The notes under the pieces: model-generated
The model's database searches: none
Told to the model about the DNA's origin: nothing
The model's input: the letters and a program-made list of their open reading frames with translations, nothing else
Made by a program: the position numbers and the translations under genes
Shown here: in pieces, positions 7,753-29,615 of the stretch
Layout of the letters: every line of letters starts with the position of its first letter
Numbering within the stretch: the first letter of the stretch is position 1
Source of the DNA: Clostridia bacterium
GTDB taxonomy: Bacteria; Bacillota; Clostridia; Oscillospirales; CAG-272
DNA: 64,000 nt
Direction of reading: 5' to 3'
NCBI GenBank assembly: GCA_017411805.1
Contig: JAFQPI010000019.1
Span: 62,001-126,000 of the forward strand

Positions 7753-7784
7753 AGTCCAGCCTCACATTTATGCAAAATTCGTAT

Positions 7785-7799: not shown

Positions 7800-7810
7800 T
7801 TACATATAAC

Positions 7811-7839
7811 ATTATAAGACAAAAAGCGCGATTGTGCAA
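7811..7839 (-). promoter_or_regulatory. Promoter of the Gfo/Idh-HAD unit
   Basis: Read on the minus strand: TTGCAC-N17-TATAAT, about 60 bp upstream of the start codon at 7752. Confidence 0.75.
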
Positions 7840-7877
7840 GACATAGATGGGTAAATGTAGGACAAAAATTGCTATAC

Positions 7878-7909
7878 AAAAAGCCAAGCTCATTGAGCTT
7901 GGCTTTTTT
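7878..7909 (-). terminator. Terminator of the three-gene surface-protein operon
   Basis: A stem of about 12 bp (AAGCCAAGCTCA / TGAGCTTGGCTT) with T-rich flanks lies just after the last paralogue on the minus strand. Confidence 0.9.
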
Positions 7910-7917
7910 CAGAAAAT

Positions 7918-9171: not shown

Positions 9172-9198
9172 TGTTTTACCGTCCTTTCATAACTAAAG

Positions 9199-10608: not shown

Positions 10609-10635
10609 CGTTTTACCGTCCTTTCATAACTAAAG

Positions 10636-12132: not shown

Positions 12133-12414
12133 AGACTTTACCTCCTTTTTGGTTGTCTTTAGAGATTTTCAAATTTAGTGTATTGAAAAAATAGCCCTTC
12201 ACTTATCAAGTACCCAAAAAGGGCGATTTGGTTTCAGTTTTTTGAGAAAAAATATATAAAAATTTGAGATTTGTCATTCTGTACAAAACGCAAGGCGAAA
12301 TCTTGTGCATACTGACAGTATAATTACATCTTAAAGTATTTATATATAGTCGAAAAATATAGCGTTCGGTTGCATATTTTTTAAAATATTCCCCTAAGTT
12401 TATTTTATCATAAA

Positions 12415-12459
12415 TAAAAAAGCAAGTCAAGAATTTTTTGGCCTGACTTGCATTTTTTG
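12415..12459. terminator. Hairpin with flanking A and T runs
   Basis: GCAAGTCA (12422-12429) pairs with TGACTTGC (12444-12451), flanked by A-run and T-run. It can act in either direction and lies between the TcaA-like gene and the paralogue operon. Confidence 0.6.
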
Positions 12460-12503
12460 TCATTTTGCACATTTTTTGAGTATTTCAATTGTTTATTATA
12501 AAC

Positions 12504-12533
12504 AACAAATCCGCGCTTTCGCGCGGATTTGTT
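12504..12533 (-). terminator. Hairpin downstream of the TcaA-like gene
   Basis: A 13-bp perfect stem AACAAATCCGCGC / GCGCGGATTTGTT with a TTTC/GAAA loop. It lies about 50 bp after the stop of the gene ending at 12583. Confidence 0.7.
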
Positions 12534-12582
12534 ACATTTATTTCGCCGAAGGCGATAACCATTCACGCCAAGCGTGACAGAA

Positions 12583-14481: not shown

Positions 14482-15368
14482 CAGTTTGCACCTCCTCTAA
14501 CAACAAAAGCAAAGGAGCTTGCGCCCTTTTCTCCGAGCTGACCGACTCCGGAGGCGTAAAACGCGCCTTCTACGGAAAATGCCGCGGCATTGACCGCTCC
14601 GTATTCAAACATCAGCGAAGCAAGCTCGGAATATGTTATACCCGCAGGATAAAGTCCGCGGTCGTTTGCAAAAATAAGGATAAGCGATCCATCCGCCGCC
14701 TGACCTATAGCGGCTCTCGACGCATAGCCTCCGCCGAGATCGCCGACGGGCGAACCGTTCTGCAGGAGTACTCTGTCCGCCGCCATGCCCCAGACGTATC
14801 CCGAATTAGCAGCCTCATAAGCCGTCATCGCGCCAACGTCAAGTATACCGTCGTCGTCCATGGCGCAGAAGCAGTAGATCTCGCCGTCATTTCCGCGATA
14901 AGTCAGATAATCTCCGATAAGAAAGGCATCAACGTCACCGGCAAGACCGAGGGCGTATTTGGAGGAAGTATACGTTGCATCAGTCTCCTCGAGCGAGAGA
15001 GTGTCGGGATCAATTCCCGTTATTACAACGGCATCCCATGCCTTTGACACGCTGTCAACGTAATAAAGCGCGGAGGTATAACTTTTATCTTCGCCGGTCT
15101 CGATCTCGGATTCCGCAATCTCGGGCGGCATATAAAAGAGGGCGCGCTCAAGCTCGTCTGCGCTGTAGAAAAGCCCCGCCAGAGGGAACCTTCTCTCAGC
15201 AAAAGTGGCGCAAAGATGAGCCGATTCTGATCTTGCGGGTCCTTTGGCAATGACAAAGGCGGCGCCCGCAATGGCACCAAGAAATATGACCGCTGTAAGC
15301 AGCAAGACCAGTCCTATCGCAAGGATGACCTTTCCCGTTTTTTTCTTTCTTCTGATAACCTTTGACAT
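14481..15368 (-). CDS. Membrane-anchored phosphodiester glycosidase-like protein (NAGPA domain)
   Basis: A 295-residue protein with a basic N-terminus (KVIRRKKKTGK) and one membrane helix (VILAIGLVLLLTAVIFLGAI). The outer domain shows the NAGPA/phosphodiester glycosidase pattern: ALGLAGDVDAFLIGDYLTYRG, then SRAAIGQAADGSLILIFANDRG and AGITYSELASLMFEYGAVNAAAF. In the family the last motif usually continues into a DGGGS-type loop; here it reads SVEGAFYASG, so a catalytic residue may be altered. Relatives cleave N-acetylglucosamine phosphodiesters or act on wall polymers. It shares a promoter with the TcaA-like gene. Confidence 0.7.
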   Translation of the reverse strand: MSKVIRRKKKTGKVILAIGLVLLLTAVIFLGAIAGAAFVIAKGPARSESAHLCATFAERRFPLAGLFYSADELERALFYMPPEIAESEIETGEDKSYTSALYYVDSVSKAWDAVVITGIDPDTLSLEETDATYTSSKYALGLAGDVDAFLIGDYLTYRGNDGEIYCFCAMDDDGILDVGAMTAYEAANSGYVWGMAADRVLLQNGSPVGDLGGGYASRAAIGQAADGSLILIFANDRGLYPAGITYSELASLMFEYGAVNAAAFSVEGAFYASGVGQLGEKGASSFAFVVRGGAN

Positions 15369-15401
15369 CAGCTACTCCATGATAATAATATACTATTATA
15401 T

Positions 15402-15430
15402 ATTTTACCGCAAAAAACGACAATTGTCAA
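15402..15430 (-). promoter_or_regulatory. Promoter of the NAGPA-like/TcaA-like operon
   Basis: On the minus strand TTGACA-N17-TAAAAT, about 35 bp upstream of the start at 15368. A GACAATTGTC palindrome overlaps the -35. Confidence 0.75.
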
Positions 15431-15449
15431 TATCTTATCTGTTAACAAT

Positions 15450-15478
15450 AAAAAAGTGCCGCTTCATCACGGCACTTC
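15450..15478 (-). terminator. Terminator of the foldase/barrel operon
   Basis: AAGTGCCG / CGGCACTT stem with a T-run on the minus strand, immediately after the stop at 15479. Confidence 0.85.
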
Positions 15479-16588
15479 TTATTCGTTATTTAGTGGAAAC
15501 TCGGGAACTCCGAGTCCCGTCATGATATTATCCGCGCCAGAATTCATCGCCGCCCTTGTCTGCAACTCGCAATCGGGATCTGATCCGCATCCCAGCAGCA
15601 TACGGATAGAATACTCACTGCAGATACTTTGAGCGCGCAATACTCTATCCGCGATCAAGGATTGAGCATTCATAAGCGAGGGGACTTCTACCGAATAAAG
15701 ATCAAGCGCGAGAAATCCACATTTCTTTGCGATCTCGTCGATCTTCTCCTTTGCACCGGTGGCATTAATAAATTCAAACGAAAGCCCGAGACCGATCACG
15801 GTACCTCTTCCCTTTTGCTCATAAACGTCGGAAATAAAGGAAAGACCCTCGTCGGTATTTCCGGTAAAACCAAGGAGCAATATTTCATCGAATCCCGCAT
15901 CAACAAGCTCGCAGATCAGCGCGATCTCGTAAGCACGCATGATCGAGCGTGTCTCATCGGGACGGTTGAGATAATCTATCTCAAAAATACCGCATATCTT
16001 TGTTCGTTCACCCCAATTTGAGTATATCAGGTCAACACCTGAATCGAGATCGGTGCTCCCCACTCTGTCTATAGAATACTCGAGGCTTGCCGAAGAGTTA
16101 TACGCAAGAAGCATTTCGCCGCTGTCACGGTCCTTTTCGCGAAGCGTTACGGAAACCGAATCAAATCTGATGGGATCCTCGGGGATCTCAATATTCTCCG
16201 TTGTATCCGAGGAATCGGACGTTACGTCACCGGTCTCCTCTTGCGTCTCCTCATTTACCTCGGTCGTATCTTCAAAAGTTGTCTCCGGGATATCTTCGGT
16301 CGCGTCTTCGGTTTCCGGGGAGTAATCCACTCCGAATATGATACCTTGCGCAATCACGTTGGCGGGAGGATTCGCGTAATAGACCTCAGCCTCCGTTGTC
16401 ACGGGCTCCGTGGTATCATAGATTATATCCTCGGCAAGTGTGCGAAGATAGTTTCCGAGCATTACCGCAAGAACGAAAAGCACAAGCGCGATCGATACAA
16501 ATATGACCGCAAGCTTTCCGCCGGGCGGCATTGGGGTATGATGACGGCTTCTGAAAGCTCTCCGCCTTCCGCCGCTTACTGTACTCAT
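15479..16588 (-). CDS. Membrane-anchored glycosidase-like TIM-barrel protein
   Basis: A 369-residue protein. One membrane helix (LAVIFVSIALVLFVLAVMLG, about 25-44) is followed by an acidic, T/E-rich spacer (repeats of TTE, EET, DTTE; about 55-135) and a C-terminal domain of ~230 residues. That domain has barrel-like strands (ICGIFEIDYLN, DEILLLGFTG, GTVIGLGLSFEF, FLALDLYS, RMLLGCGSD, DNIMTGLG). The order recalls putative glycoside hydrolases of the DUF4015 type, but the catalytic acids could not be assigned. The T/E spacer looks like a flexible wall-spanning linker. Its start directly abuts the stop of the foldase gene, so the pair is co-translated. Confidence 0.6.
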   Translation of the reverse strand: MSTVSGGRRRAFRSRHHTPMPPGGKLAVIFVSIALVLFVLAVMLGNYLRTLAEDIIYDTTEPVTTEAEVYYANPPANVIAQGIIFGVDYSPETEDATEDIPETTFEDTTEVNEETQEETGDVTSDSSDTTENIEIPEDPIRFDSVSVTLREKDRDSGEMLLAYNSSASLEYSIDRVGSTDLDSGVDLIYSNWGERTKICGIFEIDYLNRPDETRSIMRAYEIALICELVDAGFDEILLLGFTGNTDEGLSFISDVYEQKGRGTVIGLGLSFEFINATGAKEKIDEIAKKCGFLALDLYSVEVPSLMNAQSLIADRVLRAQSICSEYSIRMLLGCGSDPDCELQTRAAMNSGADNIMTGLGVPEFPLNNE

Positions 16589-17629
16589 TTATTCAATCTC
16601 CAGAATATTGATCGATTTACCGTAATCGTTGAATTCAAATTTCAGCTCGCTCTTGTATCCCGCAAGTATCTTATTGAACTCCGAGCCCATGATATCGTCC
16701 TTGAAATCGTCATAATTATCCTCAAGATAGTCCTCCTCGAGCTCGAGGCGGAGGATTATGTAGTATCCTTCGGGCGTTTTGATAATATCGCTGAGCTGAT
16801 TTACTCGCAGATCAAATGCCGCAAGCTCGTATTCATCTCCGTAATCGGAGGTATATCTTGCAAAATACTTGCCGTGTCTGGTGGTCATTGTGTAATCGGC
16901 GCAATGGATACCCTTGAGCATGATCAGCTCAAGCTCCTTCTGATCGCTCTCCTTGATCTGCGCGTGCAGCTTCTCGGCAAGTGCGAGATTCTCCTCAGTC
17001 ACACCCTGGAGAAAAATATGGTTCGTTCTAATAAAGCTATCCGAATGCATATAATCATCAATATATTCATCATCGCTCTCGACCTCACCAAGGTCCTGAG
17101 AAAGAATATAGAAGAGCTCGGTCGCGCATTCCTCGGCGGCATTATAATAGCGGAAAAGGTAATCGGTAAGATACTGCTCCTCAAGCATCTTCTTATACTT
17201 TCTGAAGCTTCCGCATTCGTCGACAGCAAGCTCGACGGTCTTCTGAACTGCATCAAGAATAGCTTCCTCTTTCATCATAACGGCTGAGCCGCCGCCAACG
17301 TAATAGAAATCTGCCATTGCCTGAACAGCATAATAGTCGCTGACGATGCTTTCGGTAACGCGAGTCATCAGCTCATCGCGGTACTCCTCAGCCTTCGCGG
17401 GATCAGTCCAGATATCCTCGCCGAATTCAAGAGCCATATCCTTCTTATGATTGAGAACAAGATAACGAAGCTCCTCGTATCTGACGTCAAATTTGCCGAT
17501 CTTACCAACGATAGCAGCCTCTTCATCGGTGCTCTTGACGGGCTTCGCTGCGCAAGAAGACATAACTGCGGTCAGCAGAATAAGCAATGCAAGAGCAAGG
17601 GAAAGTCGCCTCTTACGGTCAATTTTCAT
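16589..17629 (-). CDS. PrsA/parvulin-type peptidyl-prolyl isomerase lipoprotein
   Basis: A 346-residue lipoprotein starting at 17629, where AGGAG lies 6 nt upstream; the in-frame ATG at 17659 has no such site. The signal peptide has a lipobox (AVMSSC, lipid-carrying Cys26). The body resembles SurA/PrsA: a helical N-terminal part and a parvulin-like region from about residue 210 (RTNHIFLQGV, then TPEGYYIILRLE near 305). PrsA proteins fold exported proteins at the membrane-wall interface, often penicillin-binding proteins and secreted enzymes. It heads a pair with the barrel protein, which may be a client. Confidence 0.8.
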   Translation of the reverse strand: MKIDRKRRLSLALALLILLTAVMSSCAAKPVKSTDEEAAIVGKIGKFDVRYEELRYLVLNHKKDMALEFGEDIWTDPAKAEEYRDELMTRVTESIVSDYYAVQAMADFYYVGGGSAVMMKEEAILDAVQKTVELAVDECGSFRKYKKMLEEQYLTDYLFRYYNAAEECATELFYILSQDLGEVESDDEYIDDYMHSDSFIRTNHIFLQGVTEENLALAEKLHAQIKESDQKELELIMLKGIHCADYTMTTRHGKYFARYTSDYGDEYELAAFDLRVNQLSDIIKTPEGYYIILRLELEEDYLEDNYDDFKDDIMGSEFNKILAGYKSELKFEFNDYGKSINILEIE

Positions 17630-17765
17630 AATGATTCTCCTATTGATATAATAATTCATTTAATAATACCATAATTTTGTGTCGTCCATGTGAATACAAG
17701 AATAATTCGAACTATTTATTCTTGTCGCTCTATTTGAAAATTCACAAAAAAATTCTCAAAAACAT

Positions 17766-17794
17766 TTGCAACCGAGGCGATTATATGGTATACT
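17766..17794 (+). promoter_or_regulatory. Promoter of hprK
   Basis: TTGCAA-N17-TATACT with TGg before the -10, about 30 bp upstream of the hprK start. Confidence 0.8.
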
Positions 17795-17826
17795 ATATAT
17801 AATAAAAAATTACGAGGACGTTTATC

Positions 17827-18762
17827 ATGGAAGAAAAAAACAGAATATCGCTCTCATCGCTTATCAAAGAATTCAAGCTTGAAGAAATATATCTTCCCCT
17901 GACCGCTGAGGAGATCTTTGTCACCGTACCCGAGGTAGACCGCCCCGGACTTGCGCTGACGGGCTTTTTTGATCTTTTTGAGACCTCGCGCATTCAGCTC
18001 ATCGGTAATGCAGAATGCCGTTATCTGACCAATATGAACGACGAGGATCGCGACTTGCATATACGCAATTTCGTAGCACACAAGCCGGTCACCATCATTA
18101 TGACCTCGGGAAACAAGGCATACCCCGAGCTTATCAAATACTGCGAGGAATTCGGCGTTCCGCTTCTCTCGACCGACGAATCCACCTCCGCAACTATGGC
18201 GGCTCTCTTTGCCTCTCTCAACGTTCATCTTGCGCCCTGCATTACGCGCCACGGCGTACTCGTTGAGGTCTACGGCGAGGGTATCCTCATCCTCGGTGAC
18301 AGCGGAGTCGGTAAATCCGAGACCGCGATCGAGCTTGTCAAGAGAGGACACCGACTAATCGCGGACGACGCGGTTGAGATCAAACGTGTATCAAAAAAGG
18401 CACTCGTCGGACAGGCACCCGAGATCCTGCGCCACTACGTTGAGCTTCGCGGAATCGGTATCATAGACGTCCGCCGCCTTTACGGTATCAGCGCGGTCAA
18501 GGACACCGAAAAGCTTGACCTTGTCATCAATCTTGAATCCTGGGTTCAGGGCAAGATGTACGACCGCCTCGGACTCGACGATCAGACTGTAAACATACTC
18601 GGCATCGAGCTTCCCTCCCTCACGATCCCCGTCCGTCCCGGTAGAAACCTCGCCATCATCCTCGAGATCGCGGCAATGAACAACCGCCAGAAGAAGATGG
18701 GATACAACACCGCTGAGGAGTTCAATAAGAGACTTATGGCGATGATGGGGATAGAAGAGTGA
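17827..18762 (+). CDS. hprK: HPr kinase/phosphorylase
   Basis: A 311-residue protein of the usual family length. The P-loop GDSGVGKS is at residues 157-164 and is followed by the HRLIADDAVEI stretch with the catalytic Asp pair. The HprK signature LRGIGIIDVRRLYGISAV is near residue 215. The enzyme phosphorylates or dephosphorylates Ser46 of HPr (and Crh) in response to ATP, fructose-1,6-bisphosphate and phosphate, and so controls carbon catabolite repression in Bacillota. It is transcribed alone here, divergent from the envelope operon; its common neighbours (lgt, murB, rapZ) are absent. Confidence 0.97.
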   Translation: MEEKNRISLSSLIKEFKLEEIYLPLTAEEIFVTVPEVDRPGLALTGFFDLFETSRIQLIGNAECRYLTNMNDEDRDLHIRNFVAHKPVTIIMTSGNKAYPELIKYCEEFGVPLLSTDESTSATMAALFASLNVHLAPCITRHGVLVEVYGEGILILGDSGVGKSETAIELVKRGHRLIADDAVEIKRVSKKALVGQAPEILRHYVELRGIGIIDVRRLYGISAVKDTEKLDLVINLESWVQGKMYDRLGLDDQTVNILGIELPSLTIPVRPGRNLAIILEIAAMNNRQKKMGYNTAEEFNKRLMAMMGIEE

Positions 18763-18763
18763 T

Positions 18764-18830
18764 AAGTGTAAAGTGAAAAGTGAAAAGTTATGGTAAATTT
18801 CCGCCCGGATCGGGCGGAAATTTTCATTCA
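18764..18830 (+). repeat. Dispersed intergenic repeat, copy A
   Basis: AAGTGTAAAGTGAAAAGTG-type runs, then GGTAAATTTCC, a GC hairpin and GGAAATTTTCATT. The same order occurs at 32370-32492 (minus) and 41719-41852 (plus). Here the hairpin doubles as the hprK terminator. Confidence 0.8.
18795..18823 (+). terminator. Terminator of hprK inside repeat copy A
   Basis: A 13-bp stem AAATTTCCGCCCG / CGGGCGGAAATTT with a three-base loop, then TT. Confidence 0.75.
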
Positions 18831-18834
18831 TAAT

Positions 18835-18868
18835 AAAACGGACTGAGCGATCAGTCCGTTTTATTTTA
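18835..18868. terminator. Bidirectional terminator between hprK and the lipoprotein gene
   Basis: AAAACGGACTGA / TCAGTCCGTTTT with a GCGA loop and T-rich flank. It serves the minus-strand lipoprotein gene ending at 18883. Confidence 0.85.
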
Positions 18869-18882: not shown

Positions 18883-20205
18883 TTAGTCCATTATTATTAT
18901 GAAAAGATAGGATTTCTGCGCGACATATTCCTTTCCAACCTCGGGTGTGCCATCCCACGAAGCCATGGATGGATCTTTTAATTGAAAAACAACCTTAAAC
19001 CAATACATTCCCGCTTTCTGGTGTTCTTTATTTCCGGAATATATCTGATTGTGAGTGGGAGAATAGGACGCAACACCATCACCATTCATGTCGAACAATT
19101 CGGCATAGAAAAAATCTCCTCCTTGATTCAAATGTAAAGTTGAATATTGCGTACTGAGTAATTCGATCGTCTCATTCAACTCGCAAACAATGATCGGGCA
19201 CCCATCGGGAATTATCCCGCTTGAAAGATCATACACTTCATATTCAACGAACTCGTATGAATACTTACCGTCCTTTTCCGAGTAACCTATACATTTATAA
19301 CCGTTCTCAGACTGCTCATATCCCTCTACAATAGTATCCCCTATCTTTATTCCGACGGTTTTAATGTCATTTTCCGAAGCCAGACCGGGACTTTCGGGGT
19401 AAACGCTCGGAACATAAACGAATCCGCCTTCTTTTTGAATATCGTAAAATCTGAATGGTACACCCCAATCATCGTTTTGGAACAATAATCGAGCCTTCGA
19501 ATCATGCTCAAAATTATTGCAGTAATTTGTTATCTCGAAGCGGTTAAAAACGTCATATCTTCTATAGTCGTCATATTCGGGCTGCTCGGTATCGTACAGA
19601 TACAGCAAATACTGTGCACCGCTGATCATCGCGAGTCCGTTGCTATGCGAGAGATACAACTCGCACTCTTCGGCAACAAATTCTCCCGACACGGTTGTTT
19701 CTTCCTCTCCCAAATATTCCATCCAACCTTCGATAATGCACATCTCACCGCTCAGATCAACTTCAATAATATCGCCGACGGAAGATGTGTTACCCTCGGA
19801 TTGATACAGTATATCGTCTATTTTTACGGGACATACAACTTCTGCACTAAACGATATATTTGTTGCAGAAGCTTCTGTCAATTGTTTCGGGTTTTCCAAT
19901 ACGGTTGCAACAACTATCATTGCGTTGTCCATGCCTCGGATCTTACTTTCAATTTCTTCGAAACTCAATGACAGCTCATTAACCTCGTAACCTCTTTCCC
20001 GAACGCTCATTTGGTCAAGGCAAAATTCCGTACCTTTATACTCAATTATCGGCAAATAAGTATAATTTTCCGTATATTTCGGAGGCAACGGTAGGCTGAT
20101 ATCGAGATTTGTGCGCTCCGGAAACTCGCCAAATTCATGAAAGCAGGAGGTGAAGCCTGCCAATGAGCACAATATGAGAATTATACAAGCTACTCGTTTC
20201 TTCAT
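18883..20205 (-). CDS. Lipoprotein of unknown function
   Basis: A 440-residue protein starting at 20205, where AAGGTGG lies 5 nt upstream; a GTG nine bases earlier is less likely. The signal peptide ends in a lipobox (LAGFTSC). The rest is a soluble, beta-rich, acidic extracellular protein with no repeat or enzyme motif that could be recognised. It contains a segment DMNGDGVASY resembling a single calcium-binding loop, near residue 380. It stands alone between two terminators and has its own promoter. Confidence 0.75.
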   Translation of the reverse strand: MKKRVACIILILCSLAGFTSCFHEFGEFPERTNLDISLPLPPKYTENYTYLPIIEYKGTEFCLDQMSVRERGYEVNELSLSFEEIESKIRGMDNAMIVVATVLENPKQLTEASATNISFSAEVVCPVKIDDILYQSEGNTSSVGDIIEVDLSGEMCIIEGWMEYLGEEETTVSGEFVAEECELYLSHSNGLAMISGAQYLLYLYDTEQPEYDDYRRYDVFNRFEITNYCNNFEHDSKARLLFQNDDWGVPFRFYDIQKEGGFVYVPSVYPESPGLASENDIKTVGIKIGDTIVEGYEQSENGYKCIGYSEKDGKYSYEFVEYEVYDLSSGIIPDGCPIIVCELNETIELLSTQYSTLHLNQGGDFFYAELFDMNGDGVASYSPTHNQIYSGNKEHQKAGMYWFKVVFQLKDPSMASWDGTPEVGKEYVAQKSYLFIIIMD

Positions 20206-20234
20206 AATATCCACCTTATTGATTCAGTATTTTA

Positions 20235-20324: not shown

Positions 20325-20366
20325 TTTTGAGACTCCCGTAGACTCTCGGTATCGTTTTGAGACTCC
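20325..20366 (+). promoter_or_regulatory. Phased direct repeats upstream of the phage cassette
   Basis: TTTTGAGACTCC occurs at 20325-20336 and 20355-20366. The shared core AGACTC occurs at 20330, 20340 and 20360, all at multiples of 10 bp, hence on one helix face. A possible -10 (TAAAAT, 20376-20381) follows with no good -35, which fits a promoter needing an activator bound to these repeats. Confidence 0.5.
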
Positions 20367-20413
20367 GCTCGGCGGTAAAATGATTACGGTACAGACGGGA
20401 AAGCGAGGTTACG

Positions 20414-20830
20414 ATGTCCGCAAGCGACACTACACCGCCAAATACCCCAAGCCGCACCCTGCTTGAATACTTAGCAGACGAGGACAAGATCATCGATGCG
20501 ATCAGCGATTACGTTCTACGCTGCCGACAAGAAACGGGCGGCAACCCCAAAAGTGCGGGCAGAATACCGAATGTCGCAGGCTTTTGCAGATTTCTCGGCG
20601 TGACGCTTTCCGATTTTGATCGGATGAAGTCGACACGTCCCGAGCATCACGGCGCGATCTGCGCCGCACTTGAGGATGAAGCTCTTAACTCACAGATGAC
20701 GGCGACCATCCTCTCGATCTATCTCAAGCACCGTCTCGGTTACGGGGAGGATCGCGAGGAGGTCGGCGTCACCGATTCGGGTCAGCTCCGACTGATCTTC
20801 GATCATGACGCATTCGAAGACGGCGGATAG
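20414..20830 (+). CDS. Phage terminase small subunit (DNA-packaging protein)
   Basis: A 138-residue protein. The middle, PNVAGFCRFLGVTLSDFDRMK, reads as a helix-turn-helix, and the LEDEALNSQMTATILSIYLKHRLGYGE stretch is typical of gp3-like small terminases, which bind the packaging site and present phage DNA to the large subunit. Its position directly before the large terminase gene supports this. GAGG lies 6 nt upstream of the ATG. The last 26 nt overlap the next gene. Confidence 0.85.
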   Translation: MSASDTTPPNTPSRTLLEYLADEDKIIDAISDYVLRCRQETGGNPKSAGRIPNVAGFCRFLGVTLSDFDRMKSTRPEHHGAICAALEDEALNSQMTATILSIYLKHRLGYGEDREEVGVTDSGQLRLIFDHDAFEDGG

Positions 20831-22157
20831 CGCGCCCGAGCGCGCCCTTCACATTCCCGGCTCCCCGAACGAACGCCAGCGCGAATTCTTCTCCTGCAAA
20901 AAGAAGTACATCGCCTACGGCGGCGCTCGCGGAGGCGGAAAATCCTGGGCGCTGCGAAGGAAGCTCATCCTCATGTGTCTGCGGTATCCGGGTCTTCGCT
21001 GTCTGCTCATAAGGCGGACTCTCCCCGAGCTCCGCTCAAACCATCTCGCGCCGCTTCTTGCGGAATACGGCGCGATACTCTCCTACAGCGAGCGTGACCG
21101 CGAGCTCACTCTCGAAAACGGAAGCCGTATAATCCTCGGTTACTGCGCCGCCGAGCGCGACGCACTCCGATATCAGGGTCAGGAATACGATATCATAGCC
21201 ATCGACGAGGCAACGCAGCTGAGCGAATATCAGTTTTCTATCTTCAAGGCCTGTCTGCGTGGCACCTCGGACGTTCCGAGGCGTATTTATCTGACCTGCA
21301 ACCCCGGAGGCATCGGTCACGCATGGGTCAAAAGGCTCTTCATCGACCGCGATTACCGTCTCGGCGAGGACCCCGAGGATTACGCCTTCATCCCCGCCAC
21401 GGTTTTTGACAACGGCATTCTCACCCGCGCCGATCCCGACTATGTGCGCAGGCTCGAGACTCTGCCGCCGAAGCTCCGTGACGCCTGGCTCTACGGCAGA
21501 TGGGATATTTTCGAGGGTCAGTTCTTCACCGAATTCGACGAGGCACGCCACGTCTGCGCAGACAACGCCATCCCCCGCGCAGACCACACAGTTGCCGCGA
21601 TCGACTACGGCTTCGACATGCTCGCCGCCTATATCTGCATCTGTGACGCGGAAGGTCGCGTATACGTCACCGACGAATTCTGCGCACCAAATCTGACTCT
21701 CGGAGAAGCCGCCGCAAGGATCGCGGAGCTTTGCCGAGGGAAGAACGTGGAATTTGCCGTCGCCTCTCCCGACCTATGGAACCGCCGTCAGGACAGCGGC
21801 AAAAGCGGCTTTGAGATCATGCAATCTGCTCCCGGCATGCCGCCTATGCGCCCCGCCGATGACAGGCGAGTGCCGGGTTGGCGTGTCGTCCGCGAGTATC
21901 TGCGTGACCGCGAGGACGGCAAGCCGGGACTTCTCATCAGCCGCCGTTGCCGCGAGCTGATACGCTGTCTTCCCGCGCTCCTCTTTGACAAGAACCGTCC
22001 CGAGGATGCCGCAGGCGAGCCGCACTCGATCACTCATTCGCCCGAGGCACTCCGCTACGCGCTGATGAGCCGCTTTACCGCCGAAAGCGAGCTTCCACGG
22101 CAAGAAGGGCACGAATTCAGATTCCGCAAAAACAATAAGGATCCCTTCTTTGACTAA
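20805..22157 (+). CDS. Phage terminase large subunit
   Basis: A 450-residue protein with both domains intact. ATPase: Walker A GGARGGGKS at residues 39-47, Walker B IIAIDEA near 130-136, and the coupling motif LTCNPGG. Nuclease: AIDYGFD near Asp267, then VASPDLW and a late SPEALRYALM segment, carrying the metal-binding acids of the RNase H-like fold. It cuts concatemeric DNA and drives it into the capsid. The start lies inside the small subunit gene with no clear ribosome binding site, so expression is probably by translational coupling. No frameshift or stop is present. Confidence 0.95.
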   Translation: MTHSKTADSAPERALHIPGSPNERQREFFSCKKKYIAYGGARGGGKSWALRRKLILMCLRYPGLRCLLIRRTLPELRSNHLAPLLAEYGAILSYSERDRELTLENGSRIILGYCAAERDALRYQGQEYDIIAIDEATQLSEYQFSIFKACLRGTSDVPRRIYLTCNPGGIGHAWVKRLFIDRDYRLGEDPEDYAFIPATVFDNGILTRADPDYVRRLETLPPKLRDAWLYGRWDIFEGQFFTEFDEARHVCADNAIPRADHTVAAIDYGFDMLAAYICICDAEGRVYVTDEFCAPNLTLGEAAARIAELCRGKNVEFAVASPDLWNRRQDSGKSGFEIMQSAPGMPPMRPADDRRVPGWRVVREYLRDREDGKPGLLISRRCRELIRCLPALLFDKNRPEDAAGEPHSITHSPEALRYALMSRFTAESELPRQEGHEFRFRKNNKDPFFD

Positions 22158-22210
22158 AAAACGCGTCTGTACCCTGTCATTGAGGGGAAATACAAACGAA
22201 AGGAAATAGA

Positions 22211-23938
22211 ATGGCATCGATCAAATTCAAAAATGCACTCGGCGTCGAGCGTGGCTTTGAGGAAGGCTTCGGCGGAATAGACTCGAGTGCCGCGCAAAAA
22301 GCAACCGACAGCCTTTCATCTCTGGTCAACCTGCTCCCCGCTGCAGACGGTTCGCTTCGTCTGCGTCCCGGATACTGCGAAAAGCTTACGTTATCCGCGC
22401 CGCTCAGAGCATCCTTCTCGGTAGGAGAAAAATTCTACGCCTTGGCGGGAAGCAAGCTGACGCTTACCGACACCGAAAGCGGCGAAACCACTCTTTTGGC
22501 AGAGGTTGCAACCACCTCGGGCACAGCCGAGATATTCCGCTTCGGCGGAGAGCTTTACGTTCATGATTCGGAAAAGCTCTACCGATATGACGGCAATTTG
22601 CTTTCCGAATGCGACGGATACGCTCCGCTTTACGGAAAGAATTGGCATGCTTACGACTGCGGTGAGGTATTTGAGGATATTAACCTCGTATCCGACCGCA
22701 TCAGGATCTCCTATCTCGTTTCAGAAGGAGACCGCAACTACAATATCGGGATCAGAGCAGTCTCGCTCGAACGTATTGAGGTTGACGGAAAAGAGTACGG
22801 CGTAGAAGAAAACGGTATCACCTTGAAGGACAACACCGTGCGCTTTACAAACAACATTGAGGTCTCGGACGGACAGATTGTCACGTTATGGCTAACGATA
22901 GCTCCGGAATACTCCAAAAGGCATCTGATCTCAAAGCCCGTAAGTACCTTTGTCTTTTCAAACAGCGGCGGAGAAAGACTTTGCATGTATTCCTCGGGTG
23001 AATCCTCAGAGCTTCTCTGTTCGCTGGCGCCTTCCAAACAAGAGATCTCAGAATCAAGAAAGAGCTCCGCTTCATCCTCCCCGCTGTATTTTTCAAGCGA
23101 AAATTCCATCCGCATAGGTAACGGCGGATATCCGATCACGGGAATGGCACATCATTTCGACCGTGCTCTTCTCTTCACAGACGCCAACACCTGGTGCGTT
23201 GATTTTGAAGGAGAAGAAGCCGATCCCAAAAGAATCTTCCCCAAGATCTTTCTTCTTAATTCCGCAATAGGTTTCGAAGGCTCAGGGAGCACGGCGTACT
23301 GCCAAAATGATCCTCTGACATATTACCGCGGAAGGCTCTTCCGTTGGCATTCTCAATCGGGTGTCCGAGATGAATGCAGCGCGGATATGATCTCCGAACC
23401 CGTTTCCCATCTCATCCCCAAGGACGGCGAAAATCTCTCCATGCTTTCGATACCGCATATGGGTCTCGTACTCATTTCGGACTCCGAGAGTGATGACGGA
23501 AGGATCATCGTTTACAGCACCGAGCGTAAAGCCTGGACGCAATACAGCGGCATATTTGCCGAGCGTCTCTTCCTTTTCGGCACGTACCCCGCATTTTCAC
23601 GTTCGGAAAAGATCTACGTATTCGATGACAAACTCAAGGCGGATTTCGAAGACGGAGAAGAGTTCCCGATAGAGGCGAGGCTGGTTTCGCATTTCACCGA
23701 TTTCGGCTGTCCCGAGCTCACCAAACGATCGGTAAGAATCTTAATAAACGGTGAGCTCGGAGAGGATGCAACTCTTGAACTCGAAAACGAAATCGGTGAG
23801 AAAAGGAAGATCGGACTTTTGAAAACAGGCGGGGACTTATCCGAAAGGCTGACAATGCCTCGGTTTAAAAAGCTAAGATATACGATAGAAAGCCGCGATG
23901 CCATCTGCCTTGAAAACATCATTCTATCGGCAAAATAA
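22211..23938 (+). CDS. Phage neck/tail-hub-like structural protein
   Basis: A 575-residue protein. The opening (LGVERGFEEGFGGIDSS, then SLVNLLPAADGSLRLRPGY) is the pattern of podovirus neck or 'packaged DNA stabilisation' proteins, a beta-propeller family related to P22 gp10. The rest is beta-rich with repeated short strand pairs (FYALAGSKLTLTD, LYVHDSEKLYRYDG, ALLFTDANTWCVD, RIIVYSTERKAWTQYSG, KIYVFDDKLKADF), consistent with propeller blades. AAAGGAAA precedes the ATG. Its position between terminase and portal differs from P22, where the equivalent gene follows the capsid gene. The assignment is by pattern and context. Confidence 0.65.
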   Translation: MASIKFKNALGVERGFEEGFGGIDSSAAQKATDSLSSLVNLLPAADGSLRLRPGYCEKLTLSAPLRASFSVGEKFYALAGSKLTLTDTESGETTLLAEVATTSGTAEIFRFGGELYVHDSEKLYRYDGNLLSECDGYAPLYGKNWHAYDCGEVFEDINLVSDRIRISYLVSEGDRNYNIGIRAVSLERIEVDGKEYGVEENGITLKDNTVRFTNNIEVSDGQIVTLWLTIAPEYSKRHLISKPVSTFVFSNSGGERLCMYSSGESSELLCSLAPSKQEISESRKSSASSSPLYFSSENSIRIGNGGYPITGMAHHFDRALLFTDANTWCVDFEGEEADPKRIFPKIFLLNSAIGFEGSGSTAYCQNDPLTYYRGRLFRWHSQSGVRDECSADMISEPVSHLIPKDGENLSMLSIPHMGLVLISDSESDDGRIIVYSTERKAWTQYSGIFAERLFLFGTYPAFSRSEKIYVFDDKLKADFEDGEEFPIEARLVSHFTDFGCPELTKRSVRILINGELGEDATLELENEIGEKRKIGLLKTGGDLSERLTMPRFKKLRYTIESRDAICLENIILSAK

Positions 23939-23947
23939 GGAGTAAAA

Positions 23948-25513
23948 ATGATTACCGAATCTCAAAAAAAGACCTGGCGGCAGTATGAAGCCGGCAGAAA
24001 TTACAAAAGACAGATCGGGCTCTACTCACGCGTCGAAGAAAACGAACGCTTTTACCGAGGAGACCAATGGCGCGGCGGCGCAGGATTGCCCAAGCCCGTC
24101 TTCAACATCGTCAGCCGAATCGTTGATTATCTCGTTTCAACTGCCGCGGTCGGCGACGTTAAGATAACGTATCTTGATGAAAACCTCCCGTTCGCTCCAA
24201 ACACGGCAGAAGCTGACGTTATCAGAAAAGCCGTCGAGCTCATGAGCCAAAACGCCGCTTACCGTTGGGAGCACTCGCGCCTGCAGAGCCTAATCTACCG
24301 TCTTCTTTATGACGCTGCGCTGACGGGCGACGGTCTTCTCTATTGCTCGTGGGATCCCGATTCCGACGGCGGAGGCGGTTGGCGCGGTGATATCGTGACC
24401 GAGGCGATCGACTCTACGAATATCTTCCCCGCGGACACCTCAAATCCCGATATTCAATCTCAGGATTACATCATCATTTCGGGCAGAGCAAGCGTTGATT
24501 CCTTACGCCGCGAAGCCAAGGAAGCGGGCATGAGTGAGCAGGATATCTCAAAAATCCACCCCGACTCTTCCACAGAATTCAACGAGCGCGGTGCAGGTGA
24601 GCTTGCCAAGATCGAACCCGAATATGAGGACGGAGAAGCACGCGCTACCTATCTGATCAAATTCTTCCGTGAAAACGGACTGGTAGTGTTTGAAAAATCT
24701 ACACGCGACTGTCTCATTCGCCGTGCTGTAACGCCCTGTAAGCTCTATCCCGTAGCTCATTTTTCATGGCAGGCGGCAAAGAATTGCTTTTTCGGAAACT
24801 CTCCCGTCAGCTCTATGATAGCCAATCAGAAATATATCAACCGTGCGTACGCTATGGTCATGAAGCATATGACAGACACGGCTTTCTCAAAGGTCATCTA
24901 CGACCGCACGAGAATTCCCGAATGGACAAACGAGGTCGGAGAAGCGATCGCCGCAGTTGGCGGCGGAAATCTTGCAGATGCCGTCACGGTTGTGGGCACG
25001 GGAAAGCTTGAGGAAGGCTACCTCGCGCTTATCGAAAACGCGGTCACTTTGACCAAAGAGCTTTCAGGAGCAACCGAAACCGCGCTCGGAAACGTAAATC
25101 CGACCAACACCAGCGCGATCCTCGCCCTCCGAGAGGCTTCAATGCAGGCTCTCGAACGCGTTCAGAGCGAGCTTTACCTTTGCCTTGAGCAAATGGCTTG
25201 CATCTGGGCGGACATGACTCTCGCCTTCTGCCCCGACGGCAGACCGCTTCGCACGTCAAACGGCTTCGGAAAGCTTTTCCCCTCGCGTCTGCACTCGCTC
25301 CTTCTCCGCGCAAAGATCGACATCTGCGATTCCGCGAGATATTCCGCATCGGGAACGCAAAGCGTTCTTGACCGTCTGCTCGACGGCGGGCATATCACTC
25401 TCGCCGAATACCTTGACCGACTCCCCGAAGGACTTGTACCCGACCGCTTGATGCTTGCGGAGGCTCACAGAAAGGAGAAGAATAATGGACGAAACGATCG
25501 AGATGACGATTGA
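23948..25513 (+). CDS. Phage portal protein
   Basis: A 521-residue protein of usual portal length. The N-terminus (TWRQYEAGRNYKRQIGLYSR, then NERFYRGDQW) and PVFNIVSRIVDYLVS are typical portal openings. The central helical region with TKELSGATETALGNVNPTNTSAILALREASM matches the stem/clip region of P22- and Bacillus-phage-type portals. The portal forms the dodecameric ring at one capsid vertex through which DNA enters. The C-terminus is charged (AHRKEKNNGRNDRDDD) and overlaps the next gene by 29 nt. The ribosome binding site is AAGGAG. Confidence 0.9.
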   Translation: MITESQKKTWRQYEAGRNYKRQIGLYSRVEENERFYRGDQWRGGAGLPKPVFNIVSRIVDYLVSTAAVGDVKITYLDENLPFAPNTAEADVIRKAVELMSQNAAYRWEHSRLQSLIYRLLYDAALTGDGLLYCSWDPDSDGGGGWRGDIVTEAIDSTNIFPADTSNPDIQSQDYIIISGRASVDSLRREAKEAGMSEQDISKIHPDSSTEFNERGAGELAKIEPEYEDGEARATYLIKFFRENGLVVFEKSTRDCLIRRAVTPCKLYPVAHFSWQAAKNCFFGNSPVSSMIANQKYINRAYAMVMKHMTDTAFSKVIYDRTRIPEWTNEVGEAIAAVGGGNLADAVTVVGTGKLEEGYLALIENAVTLTKELSGATETALGNVNPTNTSAILALREASMQALERVQSELYLCLEQMACIWADMTLAFCPDGRPLRTSNGFGKLFPSRLHSLLLRAKIDICDSARYSASGTQSVLDRLLDGGHITLAEYLDRLPEGLVPDRLMLAEAHRKEKNNGRNDRDDD

Positions 25514-25946
25514 CGAGATCGCTGAAGATGTGATCGAACCCGAAGAAACAGAAGCGAACGATAACGCCGATCTGATCGCAGAACTCGACACCCTGCGCCA
25601 ACGTGTTGAAGTCGCCGAGCGCACAGCGCGAGAGATCTCTGCGGCTTGGCGCGAATTCTCCGAGCTTTATCCCGACGCAGACTTATCCTCCCTCCCCGAT
25701 TCATTCAATTCCGCGATCGAGCGCGGGATCCCTCCCGCGGCGGCATACGCCCTTGAGCTTCGCCGCCGTGAGGTAACAAAACTTCGTATCGAGGCGGCAG
25801 ATAAACGTGCCCGGGAGCTTTCCGCGGGCAAGGTTCAGCCCACCGAAGATTCACTATATTCGCCCGAGGAAGTCCGAGCTATGCCTCCCTCCGAGGTAAG
25901 AAAAAACATCGAAAAAATACGCCGCTCAATGAAGAGCTGGCGCTGA
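25485..25946 (+). CDS. Probable phage capsid scaffolding protein
   Basis: A 153-residue protein beginning at the ATG at 25485, which follows AAAGGAG; an upstream in-frame start at 25455 is less likely. It has an acidic first third, a central coiled coil (NADLIAELDTLRQRVEVAERTA) and a basic C-terminus (RKNIEKIRRSMKSWR). This acidic-coil-basic layout, its size and its place between portal and coat match scaffolding proteins, whose basic tail docks on the coat protein. No protease domain is visible. The assignment rests on layout and context. Confidence 0.7.
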   Translation: MDETIEMTIDEIAEDVIEPEETEANDNADLIAELDTLRQRVEVAERTAREISAAWREFSELYPDADLSSLPDSFNSAIERGIPPAAAYALELRRREVTKLRIEAADKRARELSAGKVQPTEDSLYSPEEVRAMPPSEVRKNIEKIRRSMKSWR

Positions 25947-25979
25947 CAAAACATTTAAAAAAAGAAAGGATTAAAAACT

Positions 25980-26798
25980 ATGTCTCTTAAAAACTTTATC
26001 TCTACCGTATGGAGCGAAACGCTCTACTCCCAGATGGACAAGAAGTACATCGCCGTCGCAAACTGCAACCGTGAATTCGAAGGTGATATCAAAGGCCGCG
26101 GCGACAGAGTCAAGATTTGCGGTGTCGGCGATATCAATATCTTCGACTACACCAAGAACACAGACTTTGACAACGCAGCTCAGGAGCTTTCCGATTCCGT
26201 AAAGACCCTCATCATCGATCAGGCAAAGGCATTCAATTTCCAGATCGACGATATCGAGCGCGCTCAGACAAACCCCAAGCTCATGGATGCTGCTGTACGA
26301 AATGCCGCTTCCGCGCTCGCAAACACCGCGGACAAGTACATCTTCGGACTCTGCAACAAGGCGGGCAGCAATATCGAAAGCACCGCAACCGTCGATAATA
26401 TCATCTCCACTCTCATCGACGCACGCACAAAGCTCCTTAAAAACAACGTCTGTGATCCCGGCGAGATCGTAATCGAGGTCTCTCCCGAGATCAGCAACCT
26501 CATTCTCAAGAGCAAGATCAACACCTCGAACGAGGATACCGCGCTTGAGACCGGATGTATCGGCAATATCGCGGGCTGCAAGGTATTTGTATCCAATAAT
26601 ATCGTCGTAGAAAACGGCGTACATAAGTGCATCGCCCGCTCCAAGCGCGCCATCGCATTTGCGGAACAGCTTTCCGAGATGGATGCATACCGTCCCGAAA
26701 AGAGATTTGCCGACGCTGTCAAGGGTCTGCACCTTTACGGTGCGGAGGTAATTTACCCCTCCGAGATGGTAAGACTCGACCTTACCCTCGCCGCGTAA
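25980..26798 (+). CDS. Phage major capsid (coat) protein
   Basis: A 272-residue protein. The opening SLKNFISTVWSETLYSQMDK, GRGDRVKICGVGDINIFDY and the later CIGNIAGCKVFVSNNIV and KRAIAFAEQLSEMDAYRPEK segments are typical of HK97-fold coat proteins of the P22/N4-gp56 branch. It lies directly after the scaffold-like gene, with AAAGGA upstream. The codon pattern is clean and the frame is intact. The capsid would be built of this protein alone; no decoration gene is seen. Confidence 0.85.
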   Translation: MSLKNFISTVWSETLYSQMDKKYIAVANCNREFEGDIKGRGDRVKICGVGDINIFDYTKNTDFDNAAQELSDSVKTLIIDQAKAFNFQIDDIERAQTNPKLMDAAVRNAASALANTADKYIFGLCNKAGSNIESTATVDNIISTLIDARTKLLKNNVCDPGEIVIEVSPEISNLILKSKINTSNEDTALETGCIGNIAGCKVFVSNNIVVENGVHKCIARSKRAIAFAEQLSEMDAYRPEKRFADAVKGLHLYGAEVIYPSEMVRLDLTLAA

Positions 26799-26816
26799 TT
26801 TTGAGGAGGGCGAAAA

Positions 26817-27206
26817 ATGAAGCTTCGCTCTGTATACGAAACCGCGCTTAAGCTTATCGGCGAGGTGGAATGCACCGCATCAGAGGCTGAGCTTTCCGAT
26901 CGCGCACCCTACATAGGTGCCGCGCTCTGCCGCGAAGCATCCGCGCTTGACCGCGCATACCGACAGGCATTCGGTATGGAAAAGGGAGTTGATTTCGAGG
27001 AATTGTACCTTGATCTCGAAGAAAAATTCCCCCTTGCGGACAGATTCGCTCCCGCCGCCGCGTACTACATGGCAGCAATGCTCATACTCGACGAAGATTT
27101 CGACCTCTACGAAACGCTCTTTGAGAGATGGTGCGATGCCCTCGCCGCCATCTCTGCTGAGATCCCCTTCGTCAAGGGCTCAACAGCCGACGTGTATCCC
27201 GAATAA
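26817..27206 (+). CDS. Phage head-completion/connector protein
   Basis: A 129-residue, mainly helical protein with a strong ribosome binding site (GAGGAGGG). The pattern of short helices with conserved aromatic and acidic residues (ALIGEVECTASEAELSDRA, then AAAYYMAAMLILDEDFDLYE) resembles gp4/gp6-like adaptor proteins that seal the portal after packaging. It is the last gene of the head cassette, and a terminator follows 15 nt later. Confidence 0.7.
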   Translation: MKLRSVYETALKLIGEVECTASEAELSDRAPYIGAALCREASALDRAYRQAFGMEKGVDFEELYLDLEEKFPLADRFAPAAAYYMAAMLILDEDFDLYETLFERWCDALAAISAEIPFVKGSTADVYPE

Positions 27207-27220
27207 ATAATCTGAAAACG

Positions 27221-27259
27221 GATACTCAATTTCCGAAAAGGGGTTGAGTATCCGTTTTT
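27221..27259 (+). terminator. Terminator of the phage head cassette
   Basis: GGATACTCAA / TTGAGTATCC stem and a run of T, directly after the connector gene. It isolates the cassette from the following chromosomal gene. Confidence 0.9.
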
Positions 27260-27332: not shown

Positions 27333-29615
27333 ATGAAAGGCAAAATCACAAAAAAGCACATTCTGCTGTTCGTCTGCATGGGCTTGATGTTCGGCTTGAT
27401 CTTTCTTACCGTTTTTTTGACGGGAGGAAGGGAGATCGGCGAGTTCACCGATACCGATCGAATCATCTTCACAGCATTTATCATCATTGAGATCGTCAAT
27501 ATCGTCGTTATGATGATCGTAGCAAACATGATAGGGAAAGCTAATCCTCCGCCCGAGCCTATCGCTCTGCCTCAAAGTATTTATCAAAAGACCTTGCGCC
27601 GGCGCGGGATAATTATTCTTGTTGCGTCAATCGTCTCGGCACTCGGCTTCAGGATACTCGGCATAGTCCTTTATAAGTTTATTCCCGCGCTCAATTGCAC
27701 CGAGACTTTGATCATATGGTGCATAGCAATGCTTCTTCCGATAGTCTTCTTTATCTCTAGCATCGTCCTGCAAAAGCTTTACGTCCGCAAATTTGCCAAT
27801 CAAAGCGTCGCGCAGATCCAAAGCTTTATGATCTCGCATCGCGAGCGTGCGGAAGAAACCGCGGCAGAAAAGCTTGCTTATTTAAAGAAATTAAAGTCGC
27901 TTTGCGATATTTACGCGATCCTTTTCGGAATACTCGGCGCGATATGTTCTCTTTTCTTAGGAAGCGTTACGTCATCATCAAGCGGTTCCGGATATTTGCT
28001 ATACCCCACGTTTCTCTTCCTTTGCGCTTTCTCCCGTATCCGTTTCCGCACCCTCGAAATCTTTTTTGACGAGGACGAAAGCTGTATTTCCGAGGATTCT
28101 TTTCCCGCTCTTTTCGCCCTTGCCGAAAAAGCCGCGCGCAAGCAGGGATGCGAGGAAAAGATCAAGATCATTCTCGCACCCGATTATGGCGCAGGCATCG
28201 CAAAGGAATCGGGTATGTATTGCATAAGTCTCGGTGTCATGCTGCTTAATATCCTTTCAGATGACGAGCTTTATCAGATACTTCTGCACGAATTTGCTCA
28301 CGTCACAAAAGAAAATATTGACGGCATGCGCGAACGCCGCTACGGCAGTTGGCTTGAAAACGGAAACCAACATTTTCTGTCCGCGCTCACCTCAAAAATG
28401 TACGCATTTGCAGATTGCATTTACGCACTTCAATTCTCGCTATATCTCTACGCCGCATCGATTCAGCTCGAGACCGAAGCCGACCGCGCAATGGCACTCC
28501 ACGGCGACTCAAAAATCGCGGCAAGTGCCCTCACGAAGCTCAAATACCGCGATCTTTACGAATGGGAGATCGGCACTCATGATGATGAATCTGCCTTCAT
28601 GACGGAGGCACCGGATCCGACAATTCTGAAAAAAGATATCGACGACTTCCTCTCGCAAATCGAAAAGAGGAAGGATTTCTGGGATTCTCTCATAGACAAG
28701 GAGATCATTTCAAGGCAAGCTTCCCACCCGACTCTAAAAATGCGCCTTGAAACTCTCGGCGTTTCGGAATACCGGGTTCTACCCGCGGAAGCCGCGGGCA
28801 GCTTTGCCGATGAGCGTATCCGCGCGCTTGAGCTAATGTCAGAGCTCGTGCGCAAAGCAAACGAAGAAAATTATGAGGAAAACAGAAAATACAGATACCT
28901 CGAGCCTCTTGAAAAGATCAAAGAATGGGAAGAAGCCGGTAGACCCGTCATTTCTGAGGAATATGCCGACATCTGCCTTTACCTTCGAGCTCTCGGCAGA
29001 CATATCGAATCAGACGAACTCTGCAAAAAGGCAATCGAGGAGCTTCCCTCCCCCGCAAATCTCCACGGCTACTATATGCACGGTTGCTTCCTGCTTCATA
29101 CATATGACCCCTCGGGACTTGATTACATCTATCACGCTATCGAAAACAACACCAACTATATTGAAGAAGGTCTTCAGATAATCGGTGAATACTGTTGCAT
29201 AGTCGGAGACCAAGAGGAGCTTGACACCTACCGCGAAAAGGCTCTTCAGATCGCACAAAAGGACAAGGATATCTACAGCAAGATCAACGTCCTCGATAAA
29301 GGCGACGATCTCACGGCGGAAAAGCTGCCCGAAGGAATGCTTGAGGGTATTATCGACTTTATCAAGTCGATCGACGGAGACAAGGTCAGCAAGGTTTATC
29401 TCGTAAGAAAGACAATCACCCCGGATTTCTTCACAAGCGCCGTGATCGTTGATTTCAAGGAAGGCGCCGCAGATGATGACCAAAACGAAATAATGCACAA
29501 GATCTTCCGCTATCTCGACACCTCAACCGATTGGCAATTCTCGCTGTTTGATTACAGAAGTGTTGCAAAGATCAAAGTCGAGAACATACCGAACAGTTTG
29601 GTTTACAAAGCATAA
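27333..29615 (+). CDS. Membrane-bound M48-like metallopeptidase with helical-repeat tail
   Basis: A 760-residue protein. Four hydrophobic segments lie at about 8-30, 45-68, 88-110 and 122-147, with two more near 190-235. The zinc site HEFAH is at 319-323, with the third ligand probably in the IQLETEADRAM segment near residue 378 (ExxxD layout), as in HtpX/Ste24-type peptidases. From about 510 the protein is helical with TPR-like pairs (YADICLYLRALGRHIESDE, then PANLHGYYMHGCFLLHTY). M48 peptidases degrade damaged membrane proteins or cut peptides. The start follows AAGGAGG. It has its own promoter and is chromosomal rather than phage. Confidence 0.8.
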   Translation: MKGKITKKHILLFVCMGLMFGLIFLTVFLTGGREIGEFTDTDRIIFTAFIIIEIVNIVVMMIVANMIGKANPPPEPIALPQSIYQKTLRRRGIIILVASIVSALGFRILGIVLYKFIPALNCTETLIIWCIAMLLPIVFFISSIVLQKLYVRKFANQSVAQIQSFMISHRERAEETAAEKLAYLKKLKSLCDIYAILFGILGAICSLFLGSVTSSSSGSGYLLYPTFLFLCAFSRIRFRTLEIFFDEDESCISEDSFPALFALAEKAARKQGCEEKIKIILAPDYGAGIAKESGMYCISLGVMLLNILSDDELYQILLHEFAHVTKENIDGMRERRYGSWLENGNQHFLSALTSKMYAFADCIYALQFSLYLYAASIQLETEADRAMALHGDSKIAASALTKLKYRDLYEWEIGTHDDESAFMTEAPDPTILKKDIDDFLSQIEKRKDFWDSLIDKEIISRQASHPTLKMRLETLGVSEYRVLPAEAAGSFADERIRALELMSELVRKANEENYEENRKYRYLEPLEKIKEWEEAGRPVISEEYADICLYLRALGRHIESDELCKKAIEELPSPANLHGYYMHGCFLLHTYDPSGLDYIYHAIENNTNYIEEGLQIIGEYCCIVGDQEELDTYREKALQIAQKDKDIYSKINVLDKGDDLTAEKLPEGMLEGIIDFIKSIDGDKVSKVYLVRKTITPDFFTSAVIVDFKEGAADDDQNEIMHKIFRYLDTSTDWQFSLFDYRSVAKIKVENIPNSLVYKA

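Follow-up and report, generated by a model that had tools for sequence, protein, structure and literature searches.

An intact phage-like head-and-packaging cassette that probably serves its hosts in a family of gut Clostridia

The 64,000-nucleotide stretch analyzed here, which we call the window, comprises bases 62001 to 126000 of contig C15 (JAFQPI010000019.1) in a draft genome of a Clostridia bacterium (GCA_017411805.1; 2.46 Mb, 84.7% complete). Between positions 20414 and 27206 of its plus strand, it carries seven open genes without internal stops, in the order small terminase (TerS), large terminase (TerL), g3, portal, scaffold, coat, and connector. This 6.8-kb cassette is not a plain prophage remnant: the bacterium probably makes use of the head machinery itself, most likely in the form of a small particle that transfers genes. 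As a likely though by no means certain explanation, we favor an operon for head building and DNA packaging whose ancestry is short-tailed-phage-like, which has been domesticated and passed on vertically, and which acts in the manner of a gene transfer agent (GTA). The case is built on intact reading frames, purifying selection, catalytic residues of TerL that do not vary, a lineage within the window's bacterial family (f1) that tracks its host, a shared chromosomal neighborhood, and scanned flanks in which no linked replication, integration, or lysis gene was detected.

In such an operon, coat and scaffold would assemble into a small head around the portal, TerS and TerL would fill it with DNA, presumably fragments of the host chromosome, which they would also cut, and the connector and g3 would close the head. 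From these genes we infer that particles form and contain random host DNA; the particles may in addition leave the cell, deliver this DNA, and thereby transfer genes.

Distribution, neighborhood, and selection

Searching 146 genomes of the genus, family f1, and order (the window's own genome included), we found a relative of the coat protein in 40, of which 26 belong to f1. The f1 set considered below consists of 24 genomes, G028 and G035 (maps L079 and L080) having been dropped as divergent (30% and 25% identity). As detected with hidden Markov models (HMMs), all seven genes occur at one locus with open frames in 20 of the 24, and 18 of these 20 complete loci keep the gene order of the window by called gene starts (17 on a recount, since the TerL frame of L064 opens upstream of TerS). 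The g3 gene lies 3′ of the connector in G023 and G025 and in the loci of f17, f20, and f24, and the cassette of G067 is spread over two contigs, one with TerS, TerL, coat, and connector and the other with g3, portal, and scaffold, a split seen in a draft assembly and possibly due to misassembly.

The chromosomal surroundings are shared as well. Of the 24 f1 loci, 10 include hprK in the sequence retrieved (some loci stop at contig ends), and at least one of nine neighborhood markers was recognized in 14 of 24, the sole marker being weak in four of those 14 (c6 at 31 to 33% in L047 and L054, pprl356 at 29% in L056, and an oxidoreductase at 32% in L059); among the non-f1 loci compared, a marker was present only in L034, which is itself a record of the f1 genome G030. 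The hprK neighborhood is conserved between genera. Within the window's genus, coat and TerL are present in 6 of 13 genomes and hprK in 12 of 13, and in six congeners with hprK but without the cassette, the hprK-pprl356 neighborhood contains no cassette genes. Loss is the simpler reading of these six absences, because other genera carry the cassette beside hprK. No larger prophage was present in the hprK loci that were read (10 with the cassette and 6 without).

Selection on the cassette is purifying. In the closest pair, the window and G005, the ratio of nonsynonymous to synonymous substitution rates (dN/dS) is 0.21 for TerS, 0.13 for TerL, 0.10 for portal, 0.15 for scaffold, 0.10 for coat, and 0.09 for connector, values similar to that of hprK (0.09; dppA, 0.13), and it is 0.17 for g3, whose dS of 2.2 is saturated. 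TerS reaches 0.35 to 0.37 against G010 and G001, and the highest values over all pairs that gave one are 0.49 for g3, 0.41 for scaffold, and 0.37 for TerS; ratios are rough where dS exceeds about 1 and nears saturation, and those for TerL of L042 and L043, whose starts were called too far downstream, come from 387 to 392 codons. TerL residues E135, D267, and D323 are invariant in 28 of 28 aligned rows, K46 is invariant in all 26 rows that include it, and D401 in those rows of the 28 that have a residue there; we take these five to be the Walker and nuclease motif residues. The most divergent protein between close species is g3 (45 to 56% identity, versus 81 to 89% for TerL, portal, and coat), a degree of divergence that would suit an exposed part of the particle.

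Some more distant loci have other arrangements. In G103 and G142 of family f17 (L060 and L061, and L222 and L223), the genes from portal to g3 share a contig and the best TerL match is on a different one, so that the packaging genes look separated there too. In loci L210, L211, L212, and L218 to L221, from other genomes of the order, relatives of TerL and g3 occur together with a portal that is divergent, and no coat of this family is recognizable; these loci are possibly further phage or GTA-like mosaics. Two f53 genomes of one genus in the same class but outside the order (G232 and G280) hold a second GTA-like set (L234, about 7273 to 18003, and L235, about 7157 to 18842, both reoriented), which runs from a 63- to 64-amino-acid open reading frame (ORF) through TerL, portal, scaffold, coat, and g3 to a fibre-like and a coiled-coil protein; judged by eye, the genes upstream of it look chromosomal.

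Phylogeny of the cassette and its hosts

To compare the descent of the cassette with that of its hosts, we set a tree of TerL, portal, and coat against an rpoB tree for 25 genomes, using label shuffles and 2,000 permutations; left out were G043 (rpoB fragment), G067 (no portal at the locus), G110 (no rpoB match), and G103 and G142 (no TerL at the locus). The two trees have 10 of 22 splits in common, against a mean of 0.26 and a maximum of 2 for shuffled labels. Distances between cassettes correlate with rpoB distances (Spearman coefficients of 0.88, 0.77, and 0.79; 0 of 2,000 permutations for each), as do those within f1 only (22 genomes; 0.78, 0.71, and 0.67; again 0 of 2,000 for each).

Trees that also contain viral sequences were built with 27 of 80 viral loci, sequences shorter than 70% of the median length having been dropped. 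In the TerL tree, the 24 f1 cassettes and L214, also from f1, form a group without viral members (support of 1.0). The f20 and f24 cassettes are placed among other and viral sequences by the TerL tree and likewise by that of the coat; portal sequences unite all 26 cassettes in one group, to which only the two f17 sequences are added (0.94). Because the f1 cassettes group without viral members while those of f20 and f24 fall among others, we argue from these trees for a single domestication in family f1, a claim that covers the history of f1.

A first interpretation of this locus, made from the letters of the window without database searches (the sequence-only reading), had offered either a recent deletion or selection for making capsids. 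It had looked to conserved synteny and dN/dS well below 1 as signs of domestication, and to a locus confined to one strain, or to neighbors with a complete prophage at the same site, as signs of a remnant. What we find is a shared neighborhood, ratios of 0.09 to 0.21 in the closest pair, a cassette carried by 6 of the genus's 13 genomes and by 24 genomes of f1, and hprK loci free of any larger prophage. Synteny, low dN/dS, and congruence with rpoB together disfavor recent deletion and speak for domestication.

Gene content, boundaries, and partner genes

By family searches, the identities of three of the seven proteins are secure: TerL (20805 to 22157; 450 amino acids [aa]; phrog_979 at 1.1e-47, with PF03237 and PF04466 above cut-off), the portal (23948 to 25513; 521 aa; phrog_156 at 7e-24, with PF16510 P22_portal above cut-off), and the coat or major capsid protein (25980 to 26798; 272 aa; phrog_267 at 3.3e-48, PF25209 above cut-off, and a profile match to the PDB 8e16 major capsid protein at 8e-53). 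The assignment of the small terminase-like TerS (20414 to 20830; 138 aa) is marginal, just under the cut-off of Pfam GP3_package (PF16677; 29.3 versus 29.4 bits), and its homologue adjoins TerL in f1 loci. In f1 loci, the end of TerS is a conserved motif (like FDHDAYEDG) in overlap with the TerL start (window 20750 to 20830), and the region in which phage relatives carry a helix-turn-helix is variable.

The remaining proteins are named by position. The candidate neck or head-closure protein g3 (22211 to 23938; 575 aa) had no match in Pfam, PHROG, or NCBIfam; the scaffold-like protein (25485 to 25946; 153 aa counted from ATG), whose homologue lies between portal and coat in relatives, had no convincing match in Pfam or PHROG; and the connector-like protein (26817 to 27206; 129 aa), with its homologue 3′ of the coat in relatives, had none in those two libraries. 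A PDB sequence search returned nothing for g3 (best value of 0.31) or for the connector, and a scan of viral_contigs gave no relative of g3, although that scan was insensitive, since HMMs later found g3 relatives in contigs recruited through TerL. A long Ser/Thr-rich insertion is present near the start of the connector homologue of genome G009, whose called length is 416 aa (locus L044, 10718 to 11968, reoriented).

The order terminase, portal, scaffold, coat, connector is that of Salmonella phage P22 (NC_002371), whose portal family the cassette portal matches, whereas the cassette lacks the tailspike, needle, and ejection proteins of that phage. We rejected P22 gp10, gp4, and coat as relatives of g3, connector, and coat, respectively, their profile matches not being significant (E values of 0.21, 0.24, and 0.081, with controls at 0.87 and 0.78).

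As the sequence-only reading had it, the starts are coupled (those of TerL and scaffold lie inside the preceding gene), RBS-like (ribosome-binding-site-like) sequence precedes g3, portal, scaffold, coat, and connector, and the operon, intact at the positions first proposed, ends in a terminator of its own, an intrinsic-terminator-like hairpin with a T-run (27214 to 27259, plus strand; −25.9 kcal/mol, z of −7.1, 0 of 200 shuffles). Upstream of TerS, a leader of about 90 bases (20327 to 20413, plus strand), conserved across four species in an alignment, contains three copies of GAGACT/AGACT spaced 10 and 20 bases apart (AGACT at 20330, 20340, and 20360). The nine remaining genomes of the genus lack the exact pattern, which G000, G001, G005, and G010 each contain a single time; further sites match only with two mismatches and are no more frequent than for a reversed-pattern control, and sigma-70-like matches in the leader region are not above chance. 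The leader is possibly an operator or promoter region, and our guess is that its repeats are a direct-repeat regulator site.

Ordinary chromosomal genes had been said to lie within 210 bp on each side, and the measured distances are 199 bp to a 443-aa gene upstream (18883 to 20214, minus strand) and 126 bp to an M48-peptidase-like gene downstream (27333 to 29615). The 443-aa gene, which sits between hprK and the cassette, has a low GC content (0.414), no library matches, and, among the compared loci, a presence only in the window. Pfam assigns other window neighbors to HPr kinase, peptidase M55, a TIM-barrel protein, an oxidoreductase, and a MerR regulator; a PHROGs scan of 13 further flanking proteins matched no family of known phage function and three of unknown function. 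That genes for an integrase, a repressor, replication, and lysis are missing, as the sequence-only reading also asserted, holds for the scanned flanks; that check covered the flanks and not every ORF of the 64-kb window. Third-position GC contents of the cassette genes (0.56 to 0.71) resemble that of hprK (0.64).

Delivery or lysis genes stand beside the cassette in 4 of the 24 f1 loci, which we count in favor of a GTA-like role: G025 (an XhlA-like protein, an amidase-LysM endolysin, a glycine-rich fibre-like protein, and a coiled coil), G023 (an XhlA-like protein, a fibre-like protein, and a coiled coil), G026 (an M23 peptidase and a holin-like protein), and G037 (an M23 peptidase). The f20 and f24 loci have holins (PF16079 at 8.9e-22 and PF05105 at 8.6e-40). 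No lysis- or fibre-type gene follows the terminator in the window. The genome-wide search for tail and lysis genes that had been suggested was made, on a draft about 85% complete, with the two holin families and with profiles from genes beside cassettes in other genomes (fibre-like A3, 4 rows; coiled-coil A2, 7 rows), and it found nothing in the window's genome, the matches of both profiles being confined to their source genomes. Either the window's genus has a reduced form of the cassette or it has an unrecognized, unlinked partner module; a lysis and attachment module may be unlinked, as in the Faecalibacterium system described below, and too divergent for the searches made.

Known systems, competing explanations, and significance

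The closest described system, compared by gene content and description rather than by sequence, is FpGTA of Faecalibacterium (Borodovich et al. 2026, PMC12946183), a podovirus-like gene set that makes DNA-filled heads. According to the portions of that report that deal with the operons, FpGTA I spans 10.5 kb with ten ORFs, the system is near-ubiquitous in its genus, and some strains have an operon II (5.5 kb, with fibre, receptor-binding protein, holin, and endolysin) that others lack. FpGTA packages about 8.5 to 9 kb, and the heads obtained from one strain measure about 40 nm and contain DNA of about 9 kb; GTA-like packaging is also given for other Ruminococcaceae, Oscillospiraceae, and Christensenellaceae, the operon being named in those portions only for Faecalibacterium. 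Both systems are podovirus-like operons of TerS, TerL, portal, scaffold, and coat in gut Clostridia chromosomes, without replication genes, but the cassette has seven ORFs in 6.8 kb and no detected partner. The Alphaproteobacterial and Brachyspira GTAs (PMC9662315), likened here by description, similarly consist of head genes that came from phages, became fixed in the chromosome, and have diversified along with the host. The part of that article listing six GTA features names tailed-phage proteins, mostly random host DNA, endogenization (often at several loci), a head too small for the whole GTA genome, mostly vertical inheritance, and delivery of DNA to cells. Three of these are seen here, namely, proteins derived from tailed phages, mostly vertical inheritance, and an endogenized genome, the last from chromosomal flanks and the two contigs of G067, in draft genomes only.

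Several observations weigh against a GTA-like operon. Heads and packaged DNA were shown for FpGTA (PMC12946183), and packaging or transfer experimentally for the Alphaproteobacterial and Brachyspira GTAs (PMC9662315), whereas the cassette and its GTA-like reading are known from genes alone. A head as large as that of FpGTA could hold the whole 6.8-kb cassette. Its GC content is slightly raised (0.539, versus 0.536 for the highest 6.8-kb stretch sampled in the window). The partner searches detected no lysis, fibre, or coiled-coil gene in the window's genome, although matches to A3 (3 of 59 genomes) and A2 (4 of 59) were all to row donors, and neither PF05105 nor PF16079 was found in any of the 13 genomes of the genus. 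The f1 group has low support in the coat tree (24 of 24 sequences, 0.40) and the portal tree (22 of 22, 0.29). The distribution is patchy, with 26 f1 matches among 146 genomes and 7 of 13 congeners lacking the cassette, so that many losses must be assumed, and four cassette splits with support of at least 0.9 conflict with supported rpoB splits (G036+G068, G030+G044+G059, G000+G005, and G051+G066). Patchiness and these conflicts, together with the placement of the f20 and f24 cassettes among phage-like sequences, are what we would expect if related head modules had been taken from phages several times at a favored site, in place of one inherited cassette; however, the single f1 group, the splits shared with rpoB, the portal tree that unites all 26 cassettes, and the hprK neighborhood kept between genera make this improbable. 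Finally, g3 was not found anywhere in genomes G009, G031, and G066, which, like the survival of head genes only, would fit a plain remnant left by recent deletion; we consider that highly unlikely, given the same open set in 20 of 24 f1 genomes, low dN/dS, and a host-like phylogeny.

Other uses for a phage head can be imagined. Capsid-forming satellites have their own terminase and head and no tail, as does the cassette, which could then borrow tails and release from a helper phage; but neither an integrase or other mobility gene nor a regulator was found in the scanned flanks, inheritance tracks the host, and G067, with all seven genes kept but split over two contigs, holds a set that a self-packaging element could not use, so a satellite, too, is disfavored and very unlikely. 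An encapsulin-like shell for storing other cargo draws on weak coat matches to encapsulin models (NF041155, 20.7 bits; PF04454, 20.2 bits), both of which are below cut-off (100 and 24.3 bits, respectively), while the portal and a terminase with invariant catalytic residues point to DNA packaging, and we give this device hardly any credence. A particle for competition or defense has a precedent in PBSX, which the account in PMC12946183 presents as GTA-like and killing rather than injecting DNA; with no tail genes found, and none of the seven proteins matched by PADLOC, this role is rather improbable, and a head set that merely interfered with invading phages would presumably not need conserved TerL nuclease residues. 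Harder to set aside, yet in our judgment still unlikely, is a minimal DNA-packaging system of head and neck only, long kept by the lineage with its seven genes and with no tail, receptor-binding, or lysis module genome-wide. Host autolysis would release its DNA, which other cells would take up by competence, or else the system would act inside the cell; this reading is weakened because lysis genes adjoin the cassette in further f1 relatives. Among the options offered by the sequence-only reading, then, a GTA-related particle fits best, and its satellite and encapsulation device fit worse.

Two records catalogued as viruses resemble these chromosomal loci. IMG/VR contig L081 (10,101 bases) has all seven genes in the layout of genome G043, and MT836592, from the human fecal virome, gives HMM matches for TerL (50% identical), portal, scaffold, coat, and g3, has an ORF of 195 aa where the connector would be, and differs in a further fibre-like ORF after g3. 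L081 suggests that chromosomal cassette loci are listed as viruses, and such loci may be counted as phages.

Open-licence literature listings yielded no description of a cassette like this in these bacteria, and few GTAs have been described outside the Alphaproteobacteria. A further podovirus-type cassette, with evidence that it is inherited across a family of uncultured gut Clostridia, would point to DNA packaging owned by the host as a commoner trait in the class. With so few genes, the cassette also lends itself to testing which components of a phage head must be retained by a bacterium.

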